Source: Bacteroidaceae bacterium (GTDB taxonomy: Bacteria > Bacteroidota > Bacteroidia > Bacteroidales > Bacteroidaceae). From it: 53,477 nucleotides of DNA. The translations under genes and the position numbers were made by a program. The stretch is taken from the NCBI GenBank assembly GCA_017448825.1, contig JAFSKR010000026.1, positions 1-53,477 of the forward strand, in the 5' to 3' direction. Below the pieces are notes generated by a model. It was given only the letters and a program-made list of their open reading frames with translations. It ran no database searches and was not told the DNA's origin. This document shows, piece after piece, positions 31,303 through 53,477 of this stretch (within the stretch, counting starts at the first letter, position 1; the number at the start of each line of letters is the position of its first letter).

Positions 31303-31311
31303 ACCTATGGG

Positions 31312-31377
31312 CAAAAAAAATGGGTAGCCGCCGCTACCCGAACCTTTGTTAACCTTAAATCTAATACTATGAAAAAC
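31312..31377 (-). ncRNA. short sRNA with own promoter and terminator
   Basis: On the minus strand a complete small transcription unit is visible: promoter at 31384-31414, about 65 bases (ending CATAGTATTAGATTTAAGG, TTAACAAAGGTTC), and the hairpin GGGTAGC-GGCG-GCTACCC-like stem (31339-31322) followed by ATTTTTTTT. No ORF fits inside it. It runs toward the 3' end of the helicase gene, ending 10 bases from its stop. I recall similar short sequences in other Bacteroidales genomes, but cannot name the family. Confidence 0.6.
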
Positions 31378-31383
31378 ACGTTG

Positions 31384-35854: not shown

Positions 35855-36631
35855 TTACTTGATGTTCTTCCGAATCTTCGTCAGGTATTGCTGCATGTGC
35901 TCTTCGTCGCGGGTGTCGATGATTTCGATAATCTCTTTCATCTCCTTGCGAATTTGTTCCACTTGCCCCTTGGTGTAGGGGTTGAAGAGGATTTCACGCA
36001 ACAGTGTGTCATCCTCACTGAGCACACCCTTGGCTATCTTCATGTGGCGCTTGAAGGTGGTGCCAGGGGCATCTTGATGTTTCATCACGGCAGCGAAGGC
36101 GAAGGTGGAGATGAAGGGAATGGAGAGAGAGTATGCCACCGTCTGGTCGTGCTCCTCGAAGGTGTATTCGAAAATGTTAAGTCCCAGCCGTTGGTAGAGG
36201 TCTTTGAAGAAGCAACGCCCCATGTAGTCGCCTTCATTGATGATGATGGCGTTCTCGTCGCTCAGTTTGCCGAGGTTGGCAAACGTGGGACCAAACATGG
36301 GGTGGGTGCTGACATAATGGAAGCCGCTTGCCTCGTAGTATTCCTTGAAGCCTGTCTTCACTGACGAAATGTCGGAGAGGATACAGTATTCCTTGGGCAG
36401 ATAGGGGATGACTTGGTCAAACACTTGCAGCGTATATTTGAGGCTGACAGCGTTGATGACAAGGTCTGCCCTGAATTTGCCAATCTCTTCCAGCGTGGTG
36501 AACCGCTGGGTGTTGTACATGAATCTTAATCGCTTGGGGTCGATGTCGTAAACAGCCACCTCGTGGTCGAATGACAGCAGGTCGGTGAAGAACGAACCCA
36601 TCTTTCCTGCTCCTAATATCAGTATCTTCAT
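35855..36631 (-). CDS. tyrA: prephenate dehydrogenase
   Basis: 258 residues. Rossmann start MKILILGAGKMGSFF and VYDIDPKRL, then VINAVSLKYTLQVFDQVIPY, LSDISSVKTGF and the substrate region VSTHPMFGPTF, which is the prephenate dehydrogenase pattern. HDQTVAYSLSIPF is the dimer-helix His motif. It makes 4-hydroxyphenylpyruvate for tyrosine. Last gene of the Phe/Tyr operon, 7 bases after the DAHP synthase/chorismate mutase gene, so it is controlled by the attenuator upstream of pheA. Confidence 0.9.
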   Translation of the reverse strand: MKILILGAGKMGSFFTDLLSFDHEVAVYDIDPKRLRFMYNTQRFTTLEEIGKFRADLVINAVSLKYTLQVFDQVIPYLPKEYCILSDISSVKTGFKEYYEASGFHYVSTHPMFGPTFANLGKLSDENAIIINEGDYMGRCFFKDLYQRLGLNIFEYTFEEHDQTVAYSLSIPFISTFAFAAVMKHQDAPGTTFKRHMKIAKGVLSEDDTLLREILFNPYTKGQVEQIRKEMKEIIEIIDTRDEEHMQQYLTKIRKNIK

Positions 36632-36638
36632 GATGCCA

Positions 36639-37703
36639 TTATTTGTTGATGATTTCTATCTGCTGGTGTACGCTTTCCTCATGGATGCTCTCAAAGACCT
36701 TGGCAACGAACTCGGGGCTCATGCCGCAGAGTGAGCCTTGTACGCCTCTCTTCGAGAGAATCTCGTTGTAGCGAACAGCCTGCAAGACGGTCATGTTGTG
36801 CTCCTTCTTGTAGTGGCCGATTTCGCGACACACTCGCATGCGTTTGGCAAGGATGTCCATGAGCTGGTTGTCCAGTTCGTCAATCTGCTTGCGCAGGCTG
36901 GTCAGGCCCTCGGCGGTAGTGTGCTCATCGCGGATGATGAGCAGCGAGAGGATGTAGTCAAGCACTTCGGGCGTCACCTGCTGCTTGGCATCACTCCATG
37001 CCTTGTCAGGGTCACAGTGAGCCTCGACAATCAGCCCGTCAAAGCCCAAATCCATTGCTTGTTGGCAGAGTGGGGCAATGAGCTCGCGGCGGCCACCAAT
37101 GTGCGAAGGGTCGCAAATGATGGGCAGGTTGGGGATGCGGCGGTGCAACTCGATGGGAATTTGCCACATCGGGGCATTGCGGTAAATCTTCTGCTCGTAG
37201 CTGGAGAAGCCTCGGTGGATGGCTCCCATGCGCTTTACCCCTGCTTGGTTGATGCGCTCCAAGGCACCAATCCACAGTTCGATGTCAGGGTTGACGGGAT
37301 TCTTCACAAACACGGGCACATCTACGCCTTTCAGTGCATCGGCCAATGCCTGTACGGCAAAAGGGTTGGCAGTCGTTCGGGCACCTACCCAAAGGATGTC
37401 CATGTCGTATTTCAGTGCCAATTCCACGTGTTCGGGGGTGGCCACTTCGGTGGAGATGAGCATGTGGGTCTCTTCCTTCACTTGCTTCATCCACGGCAGG
37501 GCCTTCTCTCCGTTGCCCTCGAAACCTCCAGGCTTGGTGCGTGGTTTCCACACACCGGCACGGAAGTTGTGGCAACCTTTCATGGCGAGTTCACGTGCTG
37601 TTGTCATCACTTGCTCCTCCGTCTCGGCTGAGCATGGGCCAGCAATCACGAACGGGCGTTCGTTGTCGCTGGGCAAATTCAATGGTTGTAGTTCGAGTTC
37701 CAT
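36639..37703 (-). CDS. bifunctional DAHP synthase / chorismate mutase
   Basis: 354 residues. The DAHP synthase part (about 1-260) has FVIAGPCSAETEEQV, FRAGVWKPRTKPGGFEG, VGARTTANPFAVQAL, PVFVKNPV, IICDPSHIGGRRE and VEAHCDPDKAWSDA. A chorismate mutase type II domain (about 270-354) follows: LRKQIDELDNQLMDILAKRM and YKKEHNMTVLQAVRYNEIL. The fusion commits erythrose-4-phosphate and PEP to aromatic synthesis and converts chorismate to prephenate for the flanking pheA and tyrA genes. Its ATG lies 5 bases from the repeat at 37708, whose AGGGGG end forms the likely ribosome binding site. Confidence 0.93.
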   Translation of the reverse strand: MELELQPLNLPSDNERPFVIAGPCSAETEEQVMTTARELAMKGCHNFRAGVWKPRTKPGGFEGNGEKALPWMKQVKEETHMLISTEVATPEHVELALKYDMDILWVGARTTANPFAVQALADALKGVDVPVFVKNPVNPDIELWIGALERINQAGVKRMGAIHRGFSSYEQKIYRNAPMWQIPIELHRRIPNLPIICDPSHIGGRRELIAPLCQQAMDLGFDGLIVEAHCDPDKAWSDAKQQVTPEVLDYILSLLIIRDEHTTAEGLTSLRKQIDELDNQLMDILAKRMRVCREIGHYKKEHNMTVLQAVRYNEILSKRGVQGSLCGMSPEFVAKVFESIHEESVHQQIEIINK

Positions 37704-37707
37704 ATCA

Positions 37708-37851
37708 GACCCCCTACCCGCTCCCCCTATGAGGGAGAGAGTAGAATATTAGTGGGGAGGATTCTACTTGTTGTTTCTATCTTATTCTTGTTTTTACTAT
37801 CGGAAGATGAGGTGGCCACTCCCTCCCTCACAAGGAGGGCGAGGGGAAGAC
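37708..37851. repeat. CT/AG-rich inverted-end element, copy 2 (aminotransferase to DAHP synthase)
   Basis: Left end AGACCCCCTACCCGCTCCCC and right end GGCCACTCCCTCCCTCACAA, then GGAGGGCGAGGGGAAGACC, are inverted copies of about 40 bases. An internal stem AGTAGAAT/ATTCTACT lies beside the left end. On the minus strand it encodes the final residues VFPSPSL and the TGA of the aminotransferase, and ends AGGGGGTCTGAT before the next gene's ATG. Confidence 0.85.
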
Positions 37852-39006
37852 CTCCTTAATTCTCTGCAATGCGGTTTTCATTTTCTCGTCTTTGGCACAA
37901 AGCGAGATGCGGATGTAGCGTGTGCCATTCGAACCGAAGATGAAACCTGGAGTGATGAAGACGCGGGCTTCGTGCAGCACCTTCTCCGTCAAGTCCTCCA
38001 CGTCGGCAATGCTGTCGGGGATGCGTCCCCAGAGGAACATGCCCTGCTGTGTGGGGTCGAAGGTGCAGCCGAGGGTGGTCATAATATCTTCAGCAATCAT
38101 GCGTCGTGTGGCATAAGTCTCAATGTTGGCGTGTGTGTGCCATGCTTCTGTGTTTTTGTATGCTTGTGCTGCGGCTAATTGCAGTGGGCGGAATGTGCCC
38201 GAATCGATGTTGCTCTTGATTTTCAGAATCCACTGAACAAACGTGCTGTTTGTAGCCAGCATACCCACACGCCAACCAGGCATATTATGGCTCTTTGACA
38301 TCGAGTTGAACTCGATGCAGCATTCCTTGGCACCTTCCACTTGGAGGATGCTTAGGTGCTCGTCTTTGTTCAGGATGAAAGAGTAGGGGTTGTCGTTTAC
38401 CACTACGATGTTATGCTTCTGTGCAAACGCCACAATCTTCTCATACAGTTCACGGGTGGCACGTCCGCCTGTCGGCATATTGGGATAGTTCGTCCACATC
38501 AGTTTCACCCCTGTCAAGTCCATTGCCTCCAACTGTTCAAAGTCTGGTTGCCATCCATGGTTCTCCATCAGGTCATAGTTCACAATCTCCTGACCCAGAA
38601 TCTTGCTCAATGACGTATAAGTTGGATATCCAGGGTTCGGCACCAGCACCTTGTCCCCAGGGTTGCACAGTGCCAAAGTCACGTGCAAGATACCTTCCTT
38701 GCTGCCGATGAGCGGCTGAATCTCTGTGGCAGGGTCGAGTTCCACGCCATACCACCTTTTGTAGAAATCTGCCATTGCCTTCCTCAGTTCGGGGATGCCT
38801 ACCGTGGGCTGATAGCCATGTGCATCGGCTTTTTTCGCATTTTCACAGAGTACGTCGATGGTTTCTGCACTGGGTGGCATATCGGGCGAGCCGATGGCAA
38901 GCGAGATGATGTCCTTGCCCTCCGCATTGAGTTTTGCCACTTCTTTTAGTTTTCTCGAAAAGTAATACTCGCTGACCAATGCGAGTCTGTCTGCTGGCTG
39001 TATCAT
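37828..39006 (-). CDS. class I/II pyridoxal-phosphate aminotransferase (Phe/Tyr operon)
   Basis: 392 residues. ISLAIGSPDMPPSAETID, the cofactor site region NPGYPTYTSLSK, WTNYPNMPTGG, VVNDNPYSF and the PLP-binding lysine in SMSKSHNMPGWRVG are typical of the AspC/LL-DAP-aminotransferase-like group. In this operon it most likely transaminates phenylpyruvate and 4-hydroxyphenylpyruvate or, less likely, prephenate. Located between pheA and the DAHP synthase gene. The C-terminal VFPSPSL comes from the inserted repeat, so the original C-terminus was different. Its ATG follows AGGGGGTCTTT, the end of the repeat at 39009. Confidence 0.85.
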   Translation of the reverse strand: MIQPADRLALVSEYYFSRKLKEVAKLNAEGKDIISLAIGSPDMPPSAETIDVLCENAKKADAHGYQPTVGIPELRKAMADFYKRWYGVELDPATEIQPLIGSKEGILHVTLALCNPGDKVLVPNPGYPTYTSLSKILGQEIVNYDLMENHGWQPDFEQLEAMDLTGVKLMWTNYPNMPTGGRATRELYEKIVAFAQKHNIVVVNDNPYSFILNKDEHLSILQVEGAKECCIEFNSMSKSHNMPGWRVGMLATNSTFVQWILKIKSNIDSGTFRPLQLAAAQAYKNTEAWHTHANIETYATRRMIAEDIMTTLGCTFDPTQQGMFLWGRIPDSIADVEDLTEKVLHEARVFITPGFIFGSNGTRYIRISLCAKDEKMKTALQRIKEVFPSPSL

Positions 39007-39008
39007 AA

Positions 39009-39162
39009 AGACCCCCTCCCCGCTCCCCCTGGAGGGGGAGAGTAGAATGTTGGTGGGGAGGATTCTACTTGATATTATTTTGTTGTTATTTATCCTTGTT
39101 GTTTTTTTGTATGCTGTAGAGGTAACCGCTCCCTCCCTATAGGGAAGGTTAGGGGAGGGTCT
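39009..39162. repeat. CT/AG-rich inverted-end element, copy 3 (pheA to aminotransferase)
   Basis: Left end AGACCCCCTCCCCGCTCCCC, then TGGAGGGGGAGAGTAGAAT; right end GGTAACCGCTCCCTCCCTAT, then AGGGAAGGTTAGGGGAGGGTCT. Body and ends match copy 2 closely near the left end; the middle is diverged. On the minus strand it supplies residues ETLP and the TAA of pheA and the AGGGGG run before the aminotransferase ATG. Confidence 0.85.
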
Positions 39163-39994
39163 CCTTGCCTTCCTTATATTCTCCTAACACTTTCAGTTGC
39201 TTCGTCAGCGGCCTTACCGCATCAATGCTCTGACGGTAGCGTGTGTAGTCATTGTACATCACGTCAATGTAGAACATATATTCCCATTCCCTCCCGATGA
39301 TAGGTAGCGATTGAATCTTTGTTAAGTTGATTTTGTAGAATGAGAAGATGCTCAACACCTGCGAGAGCGAACCCTCGCTGTGAGGTAGGCTGAATACGAT
39401 GCTTGCTTTGTTTGACTGGCTCGGTACACATAGCTCCTCGGCATGCCAAGGGTCTGCCAGCACTAAGAAGCGTGTGAAGTTATGCTTGTTTGTCTCGATG
39501 CCCTCCTCCAGAATCTTCATGCCGTAAAGTGGTGCAGCAAATTTCGAGCAGATGGCGGCGTGTCCTCTCAACCCCTTCTCTCTGATATTCTTTGCAGACC
39601 CTGCCGTGTCGTCCGTTTCTACAATCTTCAGATTAGGGTGACGCTTCAGGAAGTTCCTGCACTGCATCAGTGCCACGGGGTGCGAGTTCACTTCCGTGAT
39701 GTCCTCCCATTCATCTTCGGGCAGACACATGATGCTGTGCGAAATCCTCAGCTTATGCTCTCCCACAATCTGCACGCCGCTGTCGCGCATCAGTTCATAG
39801 TTGTGCAGCAGCGAACCGGCAATGGTGTTCTCTATTGCCATCATGCCAATTACGTTCGAGTCCTTCTTCATCTCTTCAAACACCTCCTCGAAAGTGTCAC
39901 AGCACACCAGTTCGATGTCCTCGCCTTCAAAGTAATAGTGGCTTGCCACATCGTGATAACTGCCAATCTCTCCTTGTATTGCTACTCTTCTCAT
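39149..39994 (-). CDS. pheA: prephenate dehydratase
   Basis: 281 residues, dehydratase only (no chorismate mutase domain). Periplasmic-binding-protein-like catalytic part: VAIQGEIGSYHDVAS, AIENTIAGSLLHNYELM, HPVALMQCRNFL, ETDDTAGSAKNIREKG with the TDDTA catalytic motif, then TRFLVLADP. An ACT regulatory domain follows (KASIVFSLPHSEGSLSQVLS, with the GSLSQ and YMFYIDV parts), the site for phenylalanine feedback. It makes phenylpyruvate. First gene of the operon; the C-terminal ETLP and stop codon come from the inserted repeat. Preceded by the attenuator. Confidence 0.93.
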   Translation of the reverse strand: MRRVAIQGEIGSYHDVASHYYFEGEDIELVCCDTFEEVFEEMKKDSNVIGMMAIENTIAGSLLHNYELMRDSGVQIVGEHKLRISHSIMCLPEDEWEDITEVNSHPVALMQCRNFLKRHPNLKIVETDDTAGSAKNIREKGLRGHAAICSKFAAPLYGMKILEEGIETNKHNFTRFLVLADPWHAEELCVPSQSNKASIVFSLPHSEGSLSQVLSIFSFYKINLTKIQSLPIIGREWEYMFYIDVMYNDYTRYRQSIDAVRPLTKQLKVLGEYKEGKETLP

Positions 39995-40017
39995 ATTTAT
40001 TATTATAGTATATTCAT

Positions 40018-40047
40018 CAAAAAAGCCCCACTCGTATGAGCGGGGCT
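40018..40047 (-). terminator. attenuator terminator of the Phe/Tyr operon
   Basis: AGCCCCGCTC pairs with GAGTGGGGCT (minus strand, 40047-40024) and is followed by six T, 24 bases upstream of the pheA ATG. Its 5' arm CCCGCTC (40044-40038) is also the perfect complement of GAGCGGG (40105-40099), directly after the leader peptide stop. Confidence 0.9.
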
Positions 40048-40105
40048 ATATTGTTACTTTCTATGTATCTTTCGTAGGTCTGATGAAACACATAACTTCC
40101 CGCTC

Positions 40106-40162
40106 TTACTCGTTGCTAAAGTAAAAGTAAAAATAAAAGTATGTGTTGTACCAAGACTTCAT
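40106..40162 (-). CDS. Phe/Tyr leader peptide (attenuator)
   Basis: 18 codons from the ATG at 40162 to the TAA at 40108-40106: MKSWYNTYFYFYFYFSNE. After one Trp and a Tyr, residues 8-15 are an uninterrupted alternating Y-F run; in total 5 Tyr and 4 Phe. It ends 1 base before GAGCGGG (40105-40099), which can pair with the 5' arm of the terminator. A ribosome stalled in the Y/F run leaves GAGCGGG free to form the antiterminator; a ribosome reaching the stop codon covers it and the terminator forms. This is the arrangement of Phe- and Trp-type attenuation, here for a combined Phe/Tyr operon. The reading is directly visible; regulation itself is inference. Confidence 0.88.
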   Translation of the reverse strand: MKSWYNTYFYFYFYFSNE

Positions 40163-40190
40163 CTTTTTCTATTTCTTTTCAAAATCGCTG

Positions 40191-40221
40191 CAAAAGTACA
40201 CACAAATATTGAAACTGCAAA
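40191..40221 (-). promoter_or_regulatory. promoter of the Phe/Tyr operon
   Basis: TTTG (40221-40218) and TACTTTTG (40198-40191) on the minus strand, spacing 19. Expected start near 40184, about 22 bases before the leader peptide ATG. Confidence 0.8.
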
Positions 40222-40299
40222 CATTTTTTAAGAAAAAATATACTTTTCATTGAAAAAATATACATAGAACCTCTTTTTCGTGCCGAATCGTCAGTTTCT

Positions 40300-42855
40300 C
40301 TATTTCCTCACACGGAACTTCTTCCCCTCCCTGATATAGATGCCTGGACTGAGGTTGTTGTCATTGACGCGGCGACCGCTGAGGTCATAAGTGCTACCCT
40401 CTGTAGTGGATGAATGGCTATAGGCTGCACGGATGTCCGTTTCCTTCTCAATGACTTGATGGCGGAGTGCCGAGCGTACGGCATACCACGCAGGCTTGCG
40501 GGAGAGTCCTGACGTGTAGAGCAGCGGACTGGATGCCTCCCTCCAGCTGTTATTGTCCTTCAGCCCCCAAATGATGAGATTCGGGCAATGCTCGTTATGC
40601 AGCATGATGTCCGTGATGACACGATAGTTGCGAGCCTGTTCCTCTAAGTCGCTGGCAGAGGTCGATGGAATGCCCATGTCCAGTTCCGTGATAATGCACT
40701 TCAGCCCTGCCTCCGCAAAACGCTGGATGGTCTTTTCCAACTTCACAGAATCCACGTCGCCTATCGAGAAGTGGCACTGCAAGCCCACACCATCAATCGG
40801 GATGCCGCTTTTCTTCAAACGCATGGCGAGGTTATAGAAAGCCGTAGCCTTCGCCTTGCCCTGCATCTCCACGTCATAGTCGTTCAGATAGAGCAGGGCA
40901 TCGGGGGCTGCGCGATGAGCATACACAAAGGCAGAGTCGATGAAGTCCTCCCCGATGGCAAGAGTCCACACGCTCGAACGCAAGTCGTAAGCCTCAGGGT
41001 TGGAGCGCACGGAGGTTTGGTCATCGCTCAGACATTCATTCACTACATCCCATTCAGCCACCTTCCCCTTGAAGTGCTTCGCCACGTTGGTGATATGGTT
41101 CTCCAGTATCTGCAACGCCTCCTTGCGGCTCCAGTTCTTGTCGTTCTTCTTGCCGTCACTCGACACCCATTGGGGCAGCTGCGAATGCCATGCCAGACAG
41201 TGTCCCCTCATTGCCATGTTGTTCCCGTGAGCATAGTTGACCAGATTATCCGCAGCCCAATAGTTGAATTCGCCACGTGAAGGTTCCAAAGCATCCCATT
41301 TCATCTCGTTCTCAGCTACAAGCATATTGAATTGTTGCCCAATTTCCATTGTTTCGGCAAGGCTTTCGTTCGTGATGTCATTCTTCCATGTGGAGATGGC
41401 CGTGCCGATGTACTTCCCGTTCTTTTCCGCATAGTGGCGCAAGGTGTTCCTGTCTGTTTGGTCATCGATGCCGTCATCATAAAACGCACCCATGAGTTCC
41501 TTGTTGTCGGGGTCATCTGGATCATCGGGATTGTTTGGATTATCAGGCTCATTCATCGACACCACTCGCACCCTCACCTCATATTGTCCGTTTCCCTCAC
41601 TTTCCACCAACTCCCATGTATAGTGTGCTGGCTGCTTCAGTTCAAACGCCCATTCGCCTGCTTTCGTTGTCTTGCTCTTTGCCGTAAGCAGAAGAAACTC
41701 GTCACCCACCTTCACACCAGCATCCTCCTCCAGCACTAGTTGAATGACAGGCATCCTTTCACTGGCCGAAAAGTCCTGCATGATGTTCAAGTATCTCACT
41801 TCCCCGTTCACCACCAATCGGTCATGGCTCATTGCCGAGGCGATTTTGAAGCGCAGTGCCGAGGCTGGACGCACAAAGAGGTTCGTCTTCTTCGAAGTCG
41901 TGGCAAAGTTCTTCAACGTGAGCGTTCCCACAGCGTTATCTCCAGGCTCAATGGTGCCATAGTTATCCACCGTGCCACCAACACTTCCTGTTCCACCCAG
42001 CACACCCTCCTCAAACACATATACAATGGCATCGTTCTCCTCAGTCTTGGCACCCAAGGCACCCCTCAGTTTCTTGCTTTCCGCCATCTTTGGGTCGTTC
42101 ATCACCAACACGCGTCCTTCCATCACCCGAAGTGCCCCCGTCAGATAGTTCTCGTTGCCCGTGATGCGGTAGGTGCCCTTGCCCTCCTTGATGATGCCCA
42201 CAGGATGCGAGTCGCTGTAGTCAGGCGGTGCAATCCTTCCTGCTATCGTGGCATCAGTGCCGAGGTTGCCTACCACGAAATAGGCGGAACGGGTGTTCTT
42301 CTTCATATATCCCTGAATCGTGCTGCCCGCCTCCGTGTTCAGTTCACCGATGCGGAATCCGGCACCGTTCGTGTTCGCCTCACAGCAGAGCACAGCTCCA
42401 TCATGCAGCGTCACATGACACTTCTCCATCGAGTTGTTCACCTTGCCAGATTTGATGGCATCCTCCACATTCTCAGGCGAGAAGTTTTTGCCGCCATGTG
42501 CCATCACCACACCATAGAACCCCGCTTTTGCCGAGTTTTCCTTGTAGGGATAAATGTGGATGTCGCCCTTGAAATTCGTCCAGTTAGGCCAGCTGGCACC
42601 TTTCGCCGTGCCCAGATAGCAACGCTCACCACCAGCATAGAGGTTTAGTGTGCCCGTTCCCGTGATGGTCGAATTGAAATAGCAATACCGCGCCATCAGC
42701 ACGTCCACAGTCTTGTCTGACGGCAGTGCAATGGCCTTGTCATACGAAACATAATTCTTGTCTGTATTGTCACCACTGATGTCAATGGTGCTGTTCTGAG
42801 CCATCGCAGACGACAGCATTAACTGCAAGGCAAAAACAAAAAAAGCTTTCTTCAT
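40300..42855 (-). CDS. secreted endo-1,4-beta-xylanase (GH10) with N-terminal beta-helix region
   Basis: 851 residues. Signal peptide 1-19 (KKAFFVFALQLMLSSAMA). Residues 20-440 form an autotransporter-like, repetitive beta-helix region with patterns such as GTYRITGNENYLTG and VGGTVDNYGTIEPG. A linker of NPDDPDDPD repeats (about 445-458) leads to a GH10 domain (about 465-800): acid/base Glu607 in WDVVNE and nucleophile Glu724 in ITELDMG, with MRGHCLAWHSQLPQW and IIWGLKDNNSW. A short C-terminal domain (GSTYDLSGRRVNDNNLSPGI, YIREGKKFRVRK) resembles type IX-like sorting tails of Bacteroidales. It cuts xylan at the cell surface or outside. No PUL genes (susC/susD) are nearby. Confidence 0.92.
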   Translation of the reverse strand: MKKAFFVFALQLMLSSAMAQNSTIDISGDNTDKNYVSYDKAIALPSDKTVDVLMARYCYFNSTITGTGTLNLYAGGERCYLGTAKGASWPNWTNFKGDIHIYPYKENSAKAGFYGVVMAHGGKNFSPENVEDAIKSGKVNNSMEKCHVTLHDGAVLCCEANTNGAGFRIGELNTEAGSTIQGYMKKNTRSAYFVVGNLGTDATIAGRIAPPDYSDSHPVGIIKEGKGTYRITGNENYLTGALRVMEGRVLVMNDPKMAESKKLRGALGAKTEENDAIVYVFEEGVLGGTGSVGGTVDNYGTIEPGDNAVGTLTLKNFATTSKKTNLFVRPASALRFKIASAMSHDRLVVNGEVRYLNIMQDFSASERMPVIQLVLEEDAGVKVGDEFLLLTAKSKTTKAGEWAFELKQPAHYTWELVESEGNGQYEVRVRVVSMNEPDNPNNPDDPDDPDNKELMGAFYDDGIDDQTDRNTLRHYAEKNGKYIGTAISTWKNDITNESLAETMEIGQQFNMLVAENEMKWDALEPSRGEFNYWAADNLVNYAHGNNMAMRGHCLAWHSQLPQWVSSDGKKNDKNWSRKEALQILENHITNVAKHFKGKVAEWDVVNECLSDDQTSVRSNPEAYDLRSSVWTLAIGEDFIDSAFVYAHRAAPDALLYLNDYDVEMQGKAKATAFYNLAMRLKKSGIPIDGVGLQCHFSIGDVDSVKLEKTIQRFAEAGLKCIITELDMGIPSTSASDLEEQARNYRVITDIMLHNEHCPNLIIWGLKDNNSWREASSPLLYTSGLSRKPAWYAVRSALRHQVIEKETDIRAAYSHSSTTEGSTYDLSGRRVNDNNLSPGIYIREGKKFRVRK

Positions 42856-43622: not shown

Positions 43623-43680
43623 CAAAGATAAAGTTTTTTATAAAAATGAACAAAAGAATCAAAGAAAATTTGTAGATTTG
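43623..43680. promoter_or_regulatory. divergent promoters: tracrRNA and cas9
   Basis: Minus strand TTTG (43654-43651) and TATCTTTG (43630-43623), spacing 20, for the tracrRNA. Plus strand TAGATTTG (43673-43680), 45 bases before the cas9 ATG, without a clear -33 element. Confidence 0.75.
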
Positions 43681-43725
43681 TGGCCAAAAATATCAAAAAC
43701 AATCTTAATAGCAGAAAATAGCACC

Positions 43726-46700
43726 ATGAAAAAGATATTAGGTCTTGATTTAGGCACAACAAGTATTGGATGGGCGTTGGTCAATGAAGCCGAAAATCAG
43801 AATGAGCACTCATCTATTATAAAATTGGGCGTGAGAGTCGTTCCTCTTACTACCGATGAACAAGGGAATTTTGAAAAAGGCAAGAGTATCACGACTAATG
43901 CAGAAAGAAGTTTGAAGAAAAGTATGCGACGTAATTTGCAACGTTTCAAGCTTCGTCGACTCAATTTGATAGATTGCTTGTTAGAGCATCATATTATCGA
44001 TGATGAGACTATCATGTGTGAGCAAGGTAATTTCACTACATTTCAAACATATAGAAATCGGGCTAAAGCAGTCTCTGAGGAGATTGGATTGGATGAGTTT
44101 GCAAGAGTGCTGCTCATGCTAAACAAAAAGCGTGGATATAAAAGTAGTCGTAAAGTTACTTCTGATGAAGGAACATTGATAGATGGAATGGCTATTGCCA
44201 AAGAATTGTATGAAAAGGATATGACCCCTGGCGAATATGTCTTGCAACTATTGCAGACGGGTAAGAAGTATGTTCCCGATTTTTACCGTTCCGATTTGGA
44301 AAGCGAGTTAAAACGAGTGTGGGTTTTCCAGAGCCAGTTTCATGGTTGTATCTTAACTGATGAATTTGAACATCAGTTGGCAGGGCGTTCAAAAACCAAT
44401 ACTTCCAAAATATTTTTGGCCAAATATGGTATCTATACTTATGAAAATAAGGAAAAGGACAAACGTTTGAATGCTTATAAACTGCGTGTTAAGGCACTGA
44501 AAGAACCTCTTGAGAAGGATGAATTAGCCTTTGTTATAGCTGAATTGAACGGTGCCATATACAATTCCAGTGGCTATTTGGGAGCTATCAGTGATCGTAG
44601 CAAAGAGTTGTTCTTCAACCATCAGACAGTGGGGCAATACTTGATGAAAAAATTAGACCAAGACCCACATTTCAGTTTGAAGAATAAGGCATTCTATCGT
44701 CAAGACTATTTGGACGAATTTGAAAGAATTTGGGAATGTCAGGCCACATTTCATCCCGAGCTAACCCCGAAACTCAAAAAAGAAATCCGTGACATCATTG
44801 TTTTTTATCAACGACCGCTGAAGAGCAAGAAAGGCTTGATTGACATATGCGAGTTTGAAAACAGGCAAGTGGAAATAGACGTAGAGGGTAAGAAGAAAGC
44901 GAAGACCGTTGGGCTAAAAGTCTGCCCTAAATCTTCGCCCTTGTTTCAAGAATTTAAAATTTGGCAAATTCTCAATAATCTGAAAGTCACTGATACTTTA
45001 AATGGTACTTCACGAACATTGGAACAAGAGGAAAAAGAACTCCTATTTATTGAGTTGAGTACCAAGGAGAAATTGTCAAAAACGGAAGTCTTGAAATTGT
45101 TGTTCGACCGTACCAAGAATTTGGAACTGAATTACAAAGATGTGGAAGGCAACCGTACTATGTCACCACTTTTGAAGGCATGTCTCCAGATTGTAGCCAT
45201 GACTGGGCATGATGAGTATGATGCAGCCAAGCTGAAGGGTTCAGAAGTGCTCCATATTGTTGAGAGCGTGTTTGCAGGGATAGGCTATAAAACCGATTTT
45301 CTGCATTTCAACGCAGAGCTGTCTGGCAAAGATTTCTATCAGCAGCCAGCCTATCAATTGTGGCATTTGCTCTATTCATACGAAGGAGACAATTCTAAGA
45401 CAGGGACAGAAAAGCTGGTAGAAAAAATAGGTGTGCTGACGGGGTTGGAGAGTGAATATGCCTCAGTCATCTCTAAAGTCACTTTTTCCGATGATTATGG
45501 CAATCTCAGCGCCAAAGCTATCCGTAAGATTCTGCCGTTCATGAAAGTAGGAAACGAATATAGCCTTGCTTGTGAGTATGCGGGCTACAGGCATTCCAAA
45601 CGCTCGTTGACAAAAGAAGAGATTGCAAACAAAGTATTGGTCAATAAGATAGAGTTACTTCCACGCAACAGTTTGCACAATCCTGTGGTTGAAAAGATTC
45701 TGAACCAGATGATTAATGTGGTGAATAGCCTCTCGGTCACTTATGGAAAACCTGATGAAATACGTATTGAGTTGGCGCGTGAACTGAAGAAAAACGCCAA
45801 AGAGCGTGAAGAATTGACTTTGGCCATCAACAAGGCAAATGCTCTGTACGAGAAATACACAGAAACCCTACAGAAAGAATTCGGCATCCTACATGTGAGT
45901 CATAACGACATTTTGCGTTATCGGTTGTATCTGGAGTTGGAATCTAACGGCTACAAAACACTCTACACCAACACCTACATACCCAAAGAAAAACTGTTCA
46001 GCAAAGACTTCGATATTGAACACATCATTCCACAAGCACGTCTTTTTGATGATTCTTTCTCAAACAAGACTCTTGAAAGCCGTGCTGCTAATCTGGAGAA
46101 AAGTAATACGACAGCCTACGATTATGTACAGGGGAAATACACAGATGAGGAAGTTGAGAAATACAAATTGCGTGTGGATGACCTTTGGAAGAGCGGTGCC
46201 ATCAGCAAAGCCAAGCATGATAAATTGTTGATGAGAGAAGCCGACATTCCAGAAGGATTTATAGAAAGAGACTTGCGCAATTCTCAATACATTGCAAAAA
46301 AAGCAATGGAAATTCTAGAACAAATGGTTCAATTTGTTGTTCCAACAACTGGTTCAATCACAGACAGACTACGCGAAGATTGGCAGTTGGTTGATGTAAT
46401 GCAAGAACTCAACTGGATAAAATATGACAAATTGGGTATGACAGAAACCTATAAAGACAAAGATGGTCGCGAGATTCATAAAATAATAGATTGGACAAAA
46501 CGCAATGACCACAGGCACCATGCAATGGATGCCTTGACAATAGCATTTACTCATCGAGCCATTATCCAATATTTAAACAACCTGAATGCCCGAAGTGACA
46601 AGTCCAGTAGTATCTACTCAATAGAGAAGTCATATCTATATCGTGATAAGCATGGACGATTGCGCTTCAATCCGCCAATGCCGCTCGATGAACTACGTTC

Positions 46701-47844
46701 AGCAACGAAGGAAGCCTTGGAGAACATTCTAGTGTCTATCAAGTCGAAGAATAAGGTAATGACTCAGAATGTCAATAGATCAAGAATAAGGGACGGATAC
46801 AACCGAAAAATTCAATTAACCCCACGTGGACAGTTGCATAATGAAACCATCTATGGAAGCATGAAACGCTATGTGACCAAGGAGGTGAAGGTTGGTGCTT
46901 CCATGACAATGGAGATGGCAGAGAAGGTAACGAAGAAAAAATACCGTGAAGCCTTGCTTGCTCGTTTATCAGCATTTGATAACGATTCGAAAAAAGCATT
47001 CTGTGGAAAAAATTCTCTTGACAAGAATCCAATCTATCTGAATGAATTTCATACAGAACAAGTACCTTCAAAAGTTAAGATTGTAGAATACGAAACAATC
47101 TATCCTATTCGTAAAGCAATTGACAAAGAATTGAAGGTCGATAAAGTGATTGATAAAGGAATTCGTGATATTTTGCAGCAACGGTTAGAAGAGTACGGAA
47201 GAGATGCCAACAAAGCCTTTTCTAACCTTGATGAAAATCCTATTTGGTTAAACAAAAAGGCTGGCATCAGCATTAAACGTGTGACTATAACAGGCATAGC
47301 GAATGCGACGCCACTCAGAGAAAAGAAAGACCATCAAGGAAACTTTATCCTTGATGATGAAGGCAAGCGGCAACCTGTCGACTATGTGAATACAGGCAAC
47401 AACCACCATGCGGCCATCTTCCGCGACGAGAAGGGTGAACTGCAAGAACATCTGGTTTCATTCTATGAAGCTGCAGCACAAGTTTCTCTTGGCTTGCCTG
47501 TGGTGGATAAGGAATATAAGCAATCCGAAGGGTGGACTTTCTTGTTTACAATGAAACAGAATGAATATTTTGTTTTCCCTAACAAAGAAACTGGTTTCAA
47601 TCCAAAAGAAATTAACTTGATGAGTCCTGATAATTATGAAGAAATCAGCCAAAACTTGTATCGGGTACAAAAGTTCTCATCTAAAGATTATTATTTTAGA
47701 CATCATTTGGAAACAGTGTTGAATGATGATAAAAAACTTAAGAATATAACATGGAAACGAATAAATTCCATGTCAGGATTAGAGGGAATAGTAAAAGTCC
47801 GCATCAATCACATCGGCCAAATAGTTTCTGTAGGTGAATATTAA
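43726..47844 (+). CDS. cas9: CRISPR-associated endonuclease Cas9 (type II-C)
   Basis: 1372 residues from the ATG at 43726; an in-frame TTG at 43678 overlaps the promoter. RuvC-I ILGLDLGTTSIGWALV (Asp8), an arginine-rich bridge helix (RSLKKSMRRNLQRFKLRRLN), RuvC-II IRIELARE (Glu682), the HNH domain FDIEHIIPQARLFDDSFSNK (His766), and RuvC-III RNDHRHHAMDALTIA (His932, Asp935) are all intact, so the nuclease should be active. Long recognition lobe; the C-terminal region presumably reads the PAM. No csn2 or cas4 is present, hence type II-C, and the size fits large Bacteroidota Cas9 proteins. The stop is directly followed by cas1. Confidence 0.97.
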   Translation: MKKILGLDLGTTSIGWALVNEAENQNEHSSIIKLGVRVVPLTTDEQGNFEKGKSITTNAERSLKKSMRRNLQRFKLRRLNLIDCLLEHHIIDDETIMCEQGNFTTFQTYRNRAKAVSEEIGLDEFARVLLMLNKKRGYKSSRKVTSDEGTLIDGMAIAKELYEKDMTPGEYVLQLLQTGKKYVPDFYRSDLESELKRVWVFQSQFHGCILTDEFEHQLAGRSKTNTSKIFLAKYGIYTYENKEKDKRLNAYKLRVKALKEPLEKDELAFVIAELNGAIYNSSGYLGAISDRSKELFFNHQTVGQYLMKKLDQDPHFSLKNKAFYRQDYLDEFERIWECQATFHPELTPKLKKEIRDIIVFYQRPLKSKKGLIDICEFENRQVEIDVEGKKKAKTVGLKVCPKSSPLFQEFKIWQILNNLKVTDTLNGTSRTLEQEEKELLFIELSTKEKLSKTEVLKLLFDRTKNLELNYKDVEGNRTMSPLLKACLQIVAMTGHDEYDAAKLKGSEVLHIVESVFAGIGYKTDFLHFNAELSGKDFYQQPAYQLWHLLYSYEGDNSKTGTEKLVEKIGVLTGLESEYASVISKVTFSDDYGNLSAKAIRKILPFMKVGNEYSLACEYAGYRHSKRSLTKEEIANKVLVNKIELLPRNSLHNPVVEKILNQMINVVNSLSVTYGKPDEIRIELARELKKNAKEREELTLAINKANALYEKYTETLQKEFGILHVSHNDILRYRLYLELESNGYKTLYTNTYIPKEKLFSKDFDIEHIIPQARLFDDSFSNKTLESRAANLEKSNTTAYDYVQGKYTDEEVEKYKLRVDDLWKSGAISKAKHDKLLMREADIPEGFIERDLRNSQYIAKKAMEILEQMVQFVVPTTGSITDRLREDWQLVDVMQELNWIKYDKLGMTETYKDKDGREIHKIIDWTKRNDHRHHAMDALTIAFTHRAIIQYLNNLNARSDKSSSIYSIEKSYLYRDKHGRLRFNPPMPLDELRSATKEALENILVSIKSKNKVMTQNVNRSRIRDGYNRKIQLTPRGQLHNETIYGSMKRYVTKEVKVGASMTMEMAEKVTKKKYREALLARLSAFDNDSKKAFCGKNSLDKNPIYLNEFHTEQVPSKVKIVEYETIYPIRKAIDKELKVDKVIDKGIRDILQQRLEEYGRDANKAFSNLDENPIWLNKKAGISIKRVTITGIANATPLREKKDHQGNFILDDEGKRQPVDYVNTGNNHHAAIFRDEKGELQEHLVSFYEAAAQVSLGLPVVDKEYKQSEGWTFLFTMKQNEYFVFPNKETGFNPKEINLMSPDNYEEISQNLYRVQKFSSKDYYFRHHLETVLNDDKKLKNITWKRINSMSGLEGIVKVRINHIGQIVSVGEY

Positions 47845-49364: not shown

Positions 49365-52300
49365 GTTGTTTCTGATAGTGCAAAGATACTAATTTGTAAG
49401 CAATTCACAACCAGCCACTTGCCCTGCTCCACGGAGGAAGGTTGTTTCTGATAGTGCAAAGATACTAATTTGTAAGCAATTCACAACATCTGTATCGGTG
49501 CCATGTCGTAAGCGAGGGTTGTTTCTGATAGTGCAAAGATACTAATTTGTAAGCAATTCACAACTGTATGGGACGAAAATCCTCACAGCGTGGAGTTGTT
49601 TCTGATAGTGCAAAGATACTAATTTGTAAGCAATTCACAACCTTCCACAGACTCCACCAGCGGCGGCGGTAGTTGTTTCTGATAGTGCAAAGATACTAAT
49701 TTGTAAGCAATTCACAACAGGTGAAGGAGGAGAAGGCCGAAACCGTGGTTGTTTCTGATAGTGCAAAGATACTAATTTGTAAGCAATTCACAACTAACCC
49801 ACGGGCCGGGTGTTCGCTGGCAAGTTGTTTCTGATAGTGCAAAGATACTAATTTGTAAGCAATTCACAACGCAGTTGCAGTTTGATGTAATTGAGGTTAA
49901 GTTGTTTCTGATAGTGCAAAGATACTAATTTGTAAGCAATTCACAACTCTGTGAAAAAGGGTGAGTGTGATGTTCGGGTTGTTTCTGATAGTGCAAAGAT
50001 ACTAATTTGTAAGCAATTCACAACTGGCGGTCATGTCTTTGCGACGAAGTGGGCGTTGTTTCTGATAGTGCAAAGATACTAATTTGTAAGCAATTCACAA
50101 CCCTCGTGTGTATCAAGAGCGCAGAGCGTATGTTGTTTCTGATAGTGCAAAGATACTAATTTGTAAGCAATTCACAACCAATGGTGCATTCTCTCCCATC
50201 TACATGGTGTTGTTTCTGATAGTGCAAAGATACTAATTTGTAAGCAATTCACAACTAGCGTTTAATCCTTCTCGTAGTAGGTCTTGTTGTTTCTGATAGT
50301 GCAAAGATACTAATTTGTAAGCAATTCACAACCCGTCGCCGAGTTGCCCCAGCGCAGCCAGCGGTTGTTTCTGATAGTGCAAAGATACTAATTTGTAAGC
50401 AATTCACAACACATGAAGCCCACGTTGTCGGCTACGAGGTGTTGTTTCTGATAGTGCAAAGATACTAATTTGTAAGCAATTCACAACACTTTCTTGATGC
50501 CACGCTCCTGCATGGTGTTGTTTCTGATAGTGCAAAGATACTAATTTGTAAGCAATTCACAACACCTCCCAATAGATGCACTCCTTCCCGTTGGTTGTTT
50601 CTGATAGTGCAAAGATACTAATTTGTAAGCAATTCACAACCTCGCTCGTCTTGGCTGTCACCATTCCCGTGTTGTTTCTGATAGTGCAAAGATACTAATT
50701 TGTAAGCAATTCACAACCTGCTGCTGCTTTGTTTGCTGCTGTTTTTTGTTGTTTCTGATAGTGCAAAGATACTAATTTGTAAGCAATTCACAACGTCGAG
50801 GGAAAACAATGTTGCGAAGTTAGCGTTGTTTCTGATAGTGCAAAGATACTAATTTGTAAGCAATTCACAACCGGCTGCTGTTGTTTGCGCTGTTTGCGCT
50901 GGTTGTTTCTGATAGTGCAAAGATACTAATTTGTAAGCAATTCACAACGTGCTGCGTTATCAACTACGGCGGCGGGGGTTGTTTCTGATAGTGCAAAGAT
51001 ACTAATTTGTAAGCAATTCACAACATATCTTCTAAAGATTTTGCCGAAGATACGGTTGTTTCTGATAGTGCAAAGATACTAATTTGTAAGCAATTCACAA
51101 CTATACTGGTGCAGTGCCTCCAGTGTCCACTGTTGTTTCTGATAGTGCAAAGATACTAATTTGTAAGCAATTCACAACAGTGCGCCGTAGGCTTCGTCCC
51201 GGCTGGCAGTTGTTTCTGATAGTGCAAAGATACTAATTTGTAAGCAATTCACAACTAATAATGTCCTGATTGAAACCCTTCCTATGTTGTTTCTGATAGT
51301 GCAAAGATACTAATTTGTAAGCAATTCACAACGTATGAGAGTGTTTAATCTTCAATTTCTAAGTTGTTTCTGATAGTGCAAAGATACTAATTTGTAAGCA
51401 ATTCACAACACTTATTTTTGTCGTACCAAAACATTATCGGTTGTTTCTGATAGTGCAAAGATACTAATTTGTAAGCAATTCACAACCGACCACCTCTGCC
51501 CACTCCTGCGTAGGAGGTTGTTTCTGATAGTGCAAAGATACTAATTTGTAAGCAATTCACAACATGCTATCCGTGAGTATGCGGAACTGAGCGGTTGTTT
51601 CTGATAGTGCAAAGATACTAATTTGTAAGCAATTCACAACTTGTCCTTGGAGCGTAGCGAAGAGGGCGTGGTTGTTTCTGATAGTGCAAAGATACTAATT
51701 TGTAAGCAATTCACAACACCGTTCCGTTTGGCCGCCACAAAAGACGGGTAGTTTCTGATAGTGCAAAGATACTAATTTGTAAGCAATTCACAACCTCCGC
51801 GATGTCTGCACCTTCAACCGCTAGTTGTTTCTGATAGTGCAAAGATACTAATTTGTAAGCAATTCACAACAGGGATATGCAACGACAGATGCCGCCACTG
51901 GTTGTTTCTGATAGTGCAAAGATACTAATTTGTAAGCAATTCACAACTCTGCACTTTTTCTTTTCAAAGGTACGAAAGTTGTTTCTGATAGTGCAAAGAT
52001 ACTAATTTGTAAGCAATTCACAACCAGTAGGCGCAGGACTGTCAATCGACGAGTGTTGTTTCTGATAGTGCAAAGATACTAATTTGTAAGCAATTCACAA
52101 CACGTGTCGAGGAAGGCAGGGCTGCGCGGCAGTTGTTTCTGATAGTGCAAAGATACTAATTTGTAAGCAATTCACAACGTGTAGAGTTCGGCTTTCTGTT
52201 GCGACACTGTTGTTTCTGATAGTGCAAAGATACTAATTTGTAAGCAATTCACAACCATTCTGCGACAAGAGACCGAACACGATGCGTTGTTTCTGATAGT

Positions 52301-53477
52301 GCAAAGATACTAATTTGTAAGCAATTCACAACTGTCAGTCCGTACTTGTCATTGAACATTATGTTGTTTCTGATAGTGCAAAGATACTAATTTGTAAGCA
52401 ATTCACAACAGACTGTCATTGTGGGAGATGTGCAGGAAGTTGTTTCTGATAGTGCAAAGATACTAATTTGTAAGCAATTCACAACTCGCTTGGCTTTGTT
52501 AAACAAGGTGATAATGTTGTTTCTGATAGTGCAAAGATACTAATTTGTAAGCAATTCACAACTAAAATTGAAAAACATTCATTGGCGCAGAGTTGTTTCT
52601 GATAGTGCAAAGATACTAATTTGTAAGCAATTCACAACTGGTGAAGTGCGATTCCATCAAGGACGACAGTTGTTTCTGATAGTGCAAAGATACTAATTTG
52701 TAAGCAATTCACAACTGCTCGAAGATGGGGGAGCGGGCGGTCTCGTTGTTTCTGATAGTGCAAAGATACTAATTTGTAAGCAATTCACAACGGTTGTTAA
52801 TAAGGGCAGGCTGCGGCAAGGTTGTTTCTGATAGTGCAAAGATACTAATTTGTAAGCAATTCACAACTTGCAGTGTTGTGTAGTGCTGCACGGAATTGTT
52901 GTTTCTGATAGTGCAAAGATACTAATTTGTAAGCAATTCACAACTATATTATTGTGAAACGTATTGAAAAACAAGTTGTTTCTGATAGTGCAAAGATACT
53001 AATTTGTAAGCAATTCACAACTCGCGGATGTCCTGCCACATGCGGCGTGTGTTGTTTCTGATAGTGCAAAGATACTAATTTGTAAGCAATTCACAACTTG
53101 GAATGTTGGCAGCAGTATTGGGATAAAGTTGTTTCTGATAGTGCAAAGATACTAATTTGTAAGCAATTCACAACTAGTAATCATCCGTTGAGGTACATGC
53201 AATTGTTGTTTCTGATAGTGCAAAGATACTAATTTGTAAGCAATTCACAACTAAGTGGCGGGGTTAGTGTTGTCGTGTGTAGTTGTTTCTGATAGTGCAA
53301 AGATACTAATTTGTAAGCAATTCACAACGCCTTTGGCGGCGGCATCTGTGCGGCCTGTGTTGTTTCTGATAGTGCAAAGATACTAATTTGTAAGCAATTC
53401 ACAACCCACCCGTGTACCTATGTCGATACTCGCATGTTGTTTCTGATAGTGCAAAGATACTAATTTGTAAGCAATTC
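49365..53477 (-). CRISPR. type II-C CRISPR array, 54 repeats (last one cut), 53 spacers
   Basis: Repeats of 47 bases, plus-strand form beginning GTTGTTTCTGATAGTGCAAA and ending TAAGCAATTCACAAC, start at 49365, 49441, 49518 and so on to 53435; the last is truncated after 43 bases, so the array continues beyond the window. Spacers are mostly 30 bases, about eleven of 29 and one of 31. All repeats look identical by eye except the one at 51748 (GTAG instead of GTTG at its start). The minus strand is the crRNA sense, judged from the tracrRNA anti-repeat. Each repeat contains TATCTTTG on that strand. The leader-proximal end is probably outside the window to the right (inference). Confidence 0.98.

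Follow-up and report, generated by a model that had tools for sequence, protein, structure and literature searches.

The element at positions 40018-40221 (minus strand) of the window, meaning the whole stretch of 53,477 nucleotides analysed here, very probably controls transcription by ribosome-mediated attenuation, with charged tRNA-Phe and charged tRNA-Tyr sensed jointly. By its testable features, it belongs to the trp/pheA type, with a putative regulatory response. The basis in hand is its anatomy, its conservation and covariation among relatives, a narrow spacing between the last control codon and region 2, and some match between codons and gene content where the operon is split. A sequence-only reading had described a promoter, a leader ORF, GAGCGGG right after its stop codon and CCCGCTC as a terminator arm; all of these are present, confirming that observation, and its interpretation as an attenuator is supported by the comparisons below. 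The window is contig 15 of a draft genome (2.9 Mb, 86% complete), in which the leader locus, on the minus strand, sits between a GH10 gene (40300-42855) and pheA, with the following parts:

40018-40221, minus strand: whole element, promoter to terminator, from reading the sequence
40190..40221, minus strand: promoter, from the sequence, with -33 TTTG (40218-40221), a 19-nt spacer and -7 box TACTTTTGC (40190-40198)
40106..40162, minus strand: leader ORF MKSWYNTYFYFYFYFSNE, stop TAA, from the alignment of relatives and frame-specific F/Y enrichment
40118..40141, minus strand: control codons Y F Y F Y F Y F (TAC TTT TAT TTT TAC TTT TAC TTT), an aromatic run kept in the genus
40140..40147, minus strand: region 1, AACACATA, partner of region 2b, from folding and inter-order covariation
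40099..40105, minus strand: region 2 core GAGCGGG, abutting the stop codon TAA, from pairing with region 3 and inter-order covariation
40087..40094, minus strand: region 2b, TATGTGTT, with region 1, the local downstream arm or an antiterminator extension as possible partners
40038..40047, minus strand: region 3, AGCCCCGCTC, the terminator 5' arm, whose CCCGCTC (40038-40044) pairs with region 2, from covariation
40019..40033, minus strand: region 4, GAGTGGGGCT (40024-40033), and T run (40019-40024), from covariation of the terminator stem
39149..39994, minus strand: pheA, prephenate dehydratase (PF00800, 4.3e-55)
37828..39006, minus strand: class I/II aminotransferase, called aspC here (PF00155, 2.2e-61)
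36639..37703, minus strand: DAHP synthase-chorismate mutase (DAHPS-CM) fusion (PF00793 and PF01817)
35855..36631, minus strand: tyrA, prephenate dehydrogenase (PF02153, 7.8e-9)

The terminator is a 10-bp hairpin (AGCCCCGCTC-ATAC-GAGTGGGGCT) ending in six T (40019-40047, minus strand), and the pheA ATG lies at 39994. The Pfam matches for pheA, the aminotransferase, DAHPS-CM and tyrA bear out the proposed four-gene operon, whose exact order recurs in 73 of the 124 loci with downstream sequence examined; tyrA is nearby on the same strand in 102 of them, and several of the other 22 are short contigs. Elsewhere in the window, a CRISPR array (49365-53477, 54 matches to RF01362) runs off the contig end, downstream of a large ORF (43678-47844) that, from its start, is presumably Cas9; a FopS small RNA (RF04319, 76.5 bits) occupies 31310-31379, and a partial 5S rRNA (1-79) stands at the contig edge.

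For comparison, searches for PheA succeeded in 47 of the 61 near genomes and in 42 of the 149 at class level, one fragment match being left unused in each set (G042:C88 and G082, respectively), and 80 named loci, the best of a longer list, were added, with 168 loci in total. Leaving out a second copy of the window locus (L130) and truncated loci (L045, L086, L111), there were 164 upstream regions, 159 of them distinct. The closest PheA among the best 80 named loci, at 93%, belongs to a roe-deer rumen Bacteroidaceae MAG (L050). A leader ORF was defined as 8-45 codons from start to stop with at least six F, Y or W in ten, and the same kind of leader, proposed earlier as a check in relatives, is present upstream of pheA in 140 of the 159 distinct Bacteroidia loci. 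The same rule picks out 52 of 3180 dinucleotide shuffles, 6 of the 159 reverse strands and 5 of 648 other ORFs with a length of 200 aa or more. At seven in ten, 136 of 159 loci are retained, with one of 3180 shuffles, two reverse strands and two other ORFs, these last being the same leader reached through an overlapping ORF (L103) and a leader followed by an additional first gene and then pheA (L120). At five in ten, the counts are 143 of 159 loci, 371 of 3180 shuffles, 35 reverse strands and 40 other ORFs; 16 of 159 loci have no leader even by this rule, including all five of family f37 (L139, L141, L142, L147, L151). In the window, a Bacteroidota-type promoter precedes the ORF on the minus strand, and TAnnTTTG, the consensus in the accessible part of PMC9723704, occurs at most 90 nt before 123 of 140 leader ORFs, with 7.4 expected from mononucleotide shuffles.

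The leader is thus a short ORF rich in codons for the operon products: Phe codons occur in all 140 leaders and Tyr codons in 139, Tyr having a mean share of 0.51 of the run (138 leaders). The leader of Phocaeicola vulgatus ATCC 8482 (L064), for instance, is MKALYNTYFFFFYYFYFSNKVKREFVCVR. The single Trp codon of the window leader is not conserved, most relatives having Leu, Phe, Tyr or another residue, and a role for it is not supported. Frame conservation points to translation of the ORF, as the F/Y codons number 1146, 347 and 196 of 1400 in frames 0, 1 and 2 (140 leaders), and F and Y swap order between clades with the frame unchanged. These same figures make it extremely improbable that the T-rich run works untranslated at the RNA level (by Rho loading, by binding a protein or as an unstructured spacer) with the F/Y peptide as by-product, even though its T content and its places of invariance in the genus would fit such a role; the region 2 core, read in different phases or after the stop (4, 38, 28 and 44 loci, as given below), also speaks against that reading and for a translated leader.

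In the window's genome, six-codon F/Y runs gave 14 overlapping matches at nine places, fewer than the 24 of a reversed control pattern, so the run alone is uninformative. One of the other eight places, before a gene that we take to be rsmI, was read and is not a leader. A scan of this genome found no convincing leader peptide directly before hisG, the homoserine dehydrogenase gene or ilvD. A Trp leader (MTQNNKTYWWWRSLGFKES) was seen on the reverse strand (L236, G000:C45, 743-684), preceded by promoter-like TTACTTTGC and followed by a strong hairpin and T run, upstream of a gene that looks trpB-like by eye.

Regarding the RNA, the window leader has a more stable fold than any of 200 dinucleotide shuffles (z -3.8). 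The 7-bp match of GAGCGGG with CCCGCTC is equalled by 7 of 50 shuffles of its own downstream sequence and is not significant alone; consequently, the case rests on the conservation and covariation seen in relatives. An alignment of 36 sequences from the window's genus and its near kin shows 98.3% pairing in the terminator stem, where five pairs have changed in both arms (0/500 shuffles), so that the covariation proposed as a check is found there within the genus. The 2:3 pairing hardly varies at this depth (99.2% of cells paired, one double change, 16/500 shuffles), and its covariation is found between orders, in 39 loci hand-picked for divergence and with terminators located independently of region 2. 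Region 2 scores 20.0 with its own region 3 and 14.4 when partners are swapped (0/20000 permutations), the own region 3 being the best or tied-best partner in just 14 of the 39 representatives. The independent search located no terminator in 35 of 140 loci, which were excluded from this test. The letters of 2:3 differ by clade with the pairing kept, as in GAGCGGG/CCCGCTC, GGCAGGATT/AATCCTGCC, GACCGGGA/TCCCGGTC, CGAGGCTT/AAGCCTCG, GCCGGGGCT/AGTCCCGGC and others.

Taking region 2 as the best stem with downstream sequence, searched 3 to 31 nt after the last aromatic codon, the 2:3 stem is matched by at most 2 of 50 shuffles in 101 of 140 loci and by more in the other 39, the window included. Region 3 is then reused in a hairpin with at least four T in its 9-nt tail in 133 of 140 loci, and the 2:3 antiterminator and 3:4 terminator are mutually exclusive; an intrinsic terminator with a U-tract therefore stands before the first gene in the window and in these 133 loci, the U-tract being degenerate in one subclade. 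Stricter criteria, later abandoned, left 65 of 168 loci without leader plus terminator, with a terminator in 86 of 140 and the wrong hairpin for the window.

The pairing of region 1 (40140-40147) with region 2b (40087-40094), absent from the sequence-only reading, completes the set of 1:2, 2:3 and 3:4 with a hairpin overlapping the ORF. Within the genus, 87.8% of its cells are paired in the 36 relatives, and its covariation is not above shuffles (148/500). Between orders, it scored 17.9 against 15.8 in the first form of the test (39 loci, 1/20000 permutations) and 16.8 against 14.4 in a retest with shorter, non-overlapping windows (37 loci, 0/20000; L049 and L137 were dropped because their windows overlapped), and a control window further downstream was not significant in this test (2038/20000). 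The form RCAYAY/RTATGY is seen in only 40 of 140 loci.

As for the longer contacts that had been suggested to extend the antiterminator, relatives give mixed support. The pairing of TGTGTTTC with GAAAGATACA finds some support (64.8% of cells paired in 36 relatives, 1/500 shuffles), but it is part of a local hairpin compatible with antiterminator or terminator and thus does not choose between them. GTTA with TAAC is pairable in 32, 30, 25 and 13 of 36 rows. Another candidate for the extension, GUUAUGU with AUAUAGC, shows more pairing (78.0% of cells) but does not clearly exceed shuffles (23/500; covariation 267/500). Considering energies, the fold predicted with no ribosome combines 1:2 and the terminator at -41.6 kcal/mol, against -17.1 for 2:3 alone, and in the fully transcribed RNA, the terminator with the local hairpin (-26.0) is more stable than 2:3 (-17.1); therefore, antitermination would have to be kinetic.

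In 129 of 140 loci, region 2 starts at a distance of 7-14 nt from the last aromatic codon. The stop codon is placed more loosely, 3-51 nt past that codon, before region 2 in 51 loci and inside or beyond it in 89. The AGCGG core lies inside the ORF in 4, 38 and 28 loci according to phase and after the stop in 44, with 26 leaders lacking it; since the core is read in all three phases or after the stop, it is the RNA, and not the peptide end, that is conserved. A ribosome reaches up to 12 nt beyond a stop codon, according to PMC4833913. On the simplest reading, a ribosome held on a control codon would leave region 2 free, and one moving past would cover it.

From this anatomy, we infer a transcription start, translation of the ORF, a kinetic order of folding, stalling and a response to Phe and Tyr, which would proceed as follows. 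After transcription from the promoter, a ribosome would enter the leader ORF and, with Phe or Tyr short, would stall in the YFYFYFYF run, disrupting region 1. Region 2, located about 12 nt downstream of the final aromatic codon, would thereby remain available to region 3; the terminator would then fail to form, and RNA polymerase would read into pheA-aminotransferase-DAHPS/CM-tyrA. When both amino acids are plentiful, the ribosome would reach the stop codon and cover region 2, so that the 3:4 terminator forms and transcription ends. In Bacteroides- and Prevotella-type leaders, the ribosome would instead translate through region 2. If translation did not occur, the 1:2 hairpin would leave the terminator free, making the default state off. 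Such a leader could find use in Bacteroides as a switch that responds to Phe and Tyr.

Attenuation could also act on translation, the 3:4 hairpin hiding the pheA start region, and relatives whose hairpin stops 18-19 nt short of the ATG and is followed by at most 2 consecutive T (L011, L033, L035, L036, L110) or 3 (L034) would suit such a mechanism. It is nevertheless very unlikely for the element as a whole, as the T run is at least 5 in 36 of 48 listed leaders (6 in the window, where the ATG is 29 nt away), and the length of the T run shows no correlation with the spacing to the ATG over these 48 (p 0.68). In the relatives just named, the hairpin is kept and the T run is degraded (GGGGCTTATAC), and this subclade has possibly switched to translational control. 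Likewise, little probability is given to a trans role for the terminated leader (as a regulatory small RNA) or its peptide. A precedent is the leader peptide peTrpL of Sinorhizobium, which acts in trans according to PMC7298713; against it, the window leader matches no Rfam family at gathering score, tRNAs alone reach gathering in ten named Bacteroidales pheA loci, and cis pairing accounts for the conservation.

Whether the codon mix follows the operon content can be seen where the operon is naturally split. In one genome (G054), pheA stands alone (L038/L226, the next gene converging) behind leader MTRFFTHFFFFFTQQ, which has seven Phe codons and is the sole Tyr-free leader among the 140. Another leader, MNNTFGYYAFYYYFFYNN, with six Tyr and four Phe codons, precedes the separate tyrA-DAHPS-CM operon of this genome in a complete attenuator with GAAGCGGGGC/GCCCCGCTT; the 17 other loci found in this genome's family carry mixed leaders. 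L038 had been flagged as possibly tandem, and no terminator was seen after its first ORF. In another genome, an aspC-tyrA operon (L321) carries leader MILFSKYYYYYFYSLNGI with the run YYYYYFY. This last case comes from an order-wide survey covering the 30 best tyrA loci and 11 longer stretches, which also hold tyrA-DAHPS-CM (L311-L314, one family) and aspC-tyrA-DAHPS-CM (L315-L317) with no pheA in the stretch. Among the longer stretches, L319 is G054 again and L320 holds pheA; no leader was seen in the little sequence before tyrA of L318. Among the 30 tyrA loci, L292, L299 and L300 show aspC, with their upstream ends beyond the stretch.

Other cases are mixed. Among pheA-led operons, the Tyr share does not differ between those with tyrA (93) and those with DAHPS-CM only and no tyrA nearby (7, mean 0.48; p 0.42), the leader of the lone pheA of L106 keeps two Tyr codons and, of two genomes with no PF02153 match, G163 has a Tyr-poor leader and G139 has YYFFFY. 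At that locus of L106 (2550-2930), pheA precedes genes that look trpB- and trpE-like by eye, with long simple-repeat runs between. In operons with no pheA, the Tyr share rises weakly (p 0.10 over nine loci, 0.03 by family), with opposite cases in L317 (10 Phe, 5 Tyr) and L313/L314 (4 Phe, 3 Tyr). A Trp codon within the run is commoner in operons with no pheA (6 of 9) than in the others (12 of 138); by family, it is present in three of six (p 0.015 in a post-hoc test). Codon content thus appears to follow gene content in part, so that the claim of one leader reading both Phe and Tyr is partially supported by the split operons (G054, L321), with the unchanged Tyr share (p 0.42) and L313, L314 and L317 contrary to it.

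These data also bear on a plain Phe attenuator like E. coli pheL, in which the Tyr codons would be incidental, TTT being one or two steps from TAT/TAC in a pyrimidine-rich run. Phe codons in every leader, pheA as the first gene and the independence of Tyr share from tyrA among pheA-led operons would be expected from it; even so, Tyr makes up about half of the run and is missing from one leader, which precedes a lone pheA, and operons with no pheA retain Tyr codons, making this explanation highly improbable relative to joint sensing of Phe and Tyr. In broader terms, there is about an even chance that aromatic synthesis in Bacteroidia is under one old, modular leader-peptide attenuator, which would be Phe-only before lone pheA, Tyr-dominant before aspC-tyrA, Phe and Tyr before the joint operon and Phe, Tyr and Trp before some DAHP-synthase operons with no pheA, sometimes doubled in series for a steeper switch, and with a stop codon whose position can vary, the spacing between the last control codon and region 2 being all that counts. 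The natural splits make the evolution of control codons with gene content testable.

Tandem aromatic leader ORFs, each followed by a hairpin and T run, were seen upstream of pheA in L043, L049, L138, L166, L167 and L320 and upstream of aspC in L315 and L317; L043, L049, L138 and L166 were called by rule and L167, L320, L315 and L317 by eye. This arrangement suggests tandem attenuators in several families.

Among known systems, the closest in kind is pheL-pheA of E. coli (RF01859, Phe_leader), which shares a short Phe-rich ORF, alternative hairpins and an intrinsic terminator before pheA, and differs in its organisms and in a peptide with Phe as the only signal. The window scores 26.6 bits against a gathering threshold of 55 (33.7 for the best of 12 order-level loci) and is thus not a member of that family; such sub-threshold matches, including BTnc231 at 19.5 bits, were not taken as evidence. 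For the T-box riboswitch, the window as a whole has no Rfam match at gathering, and 39900-40320 has none even at E up to 5. Reading several operon products with one leader is known from the enterobacterial ilvGMEDA (Leu, Val, Ile) and thr (Thr, Ile) leaders, which share this multivalence with the present element and differ in their amino acids; we know of no Phe/Tyr leader of this type. The comparative survey of bacterial amino-acid attenuators by Lopatovskaya, Seliverstov and Lyubetsky (2010), cited in PMC4833913, could already list Bacteroidetes cases.

The statement that no Phe/Tyr example is described in Bacteroidota stands insofar as no such leader was found in the open-licence papers searched, but a structured 5' element of pheA with no Rfam match is known from Flavobacterium psychrophilum and other Flavobacteriaceae (PMC9723704). 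It shares phylum, gene and the lack of an Rfam match with the window element; the accessible part of that article reports strong clues for leader-peptide attenuation before amino-acid operons and describes no peptide, codon content, dual sensing or pairing for pheA. PMC2965389 describes ribosome-mediated attenuation as known for a long time mainly from Proteobacteria and Actinobacteria, and in 2010 its authors knew no leader-peptide system beyond those phyla, save the atypical ermC, before their own Firmicutes case; no such element was found before the phenylalanine or tyrosine operons of Actinobacteria (PMC1262725), pheA is listed among enterobacterial attenuators (PMC1183508), and leader-like sORFs occur in B. 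thetaiotaomicron (PMC7366714). Two leader ORF-attenuator units in series are also found in Salmonella mgtCBR, where, according to PMC3641672, they sense different signals, ATP and proline, whereas both units carry Phe/Tyr codons here (L043, L049, L138, L166, L167). The attenuator is therefore of a kind already known, and its dual sensing, floating stop codon and tandem units look new.
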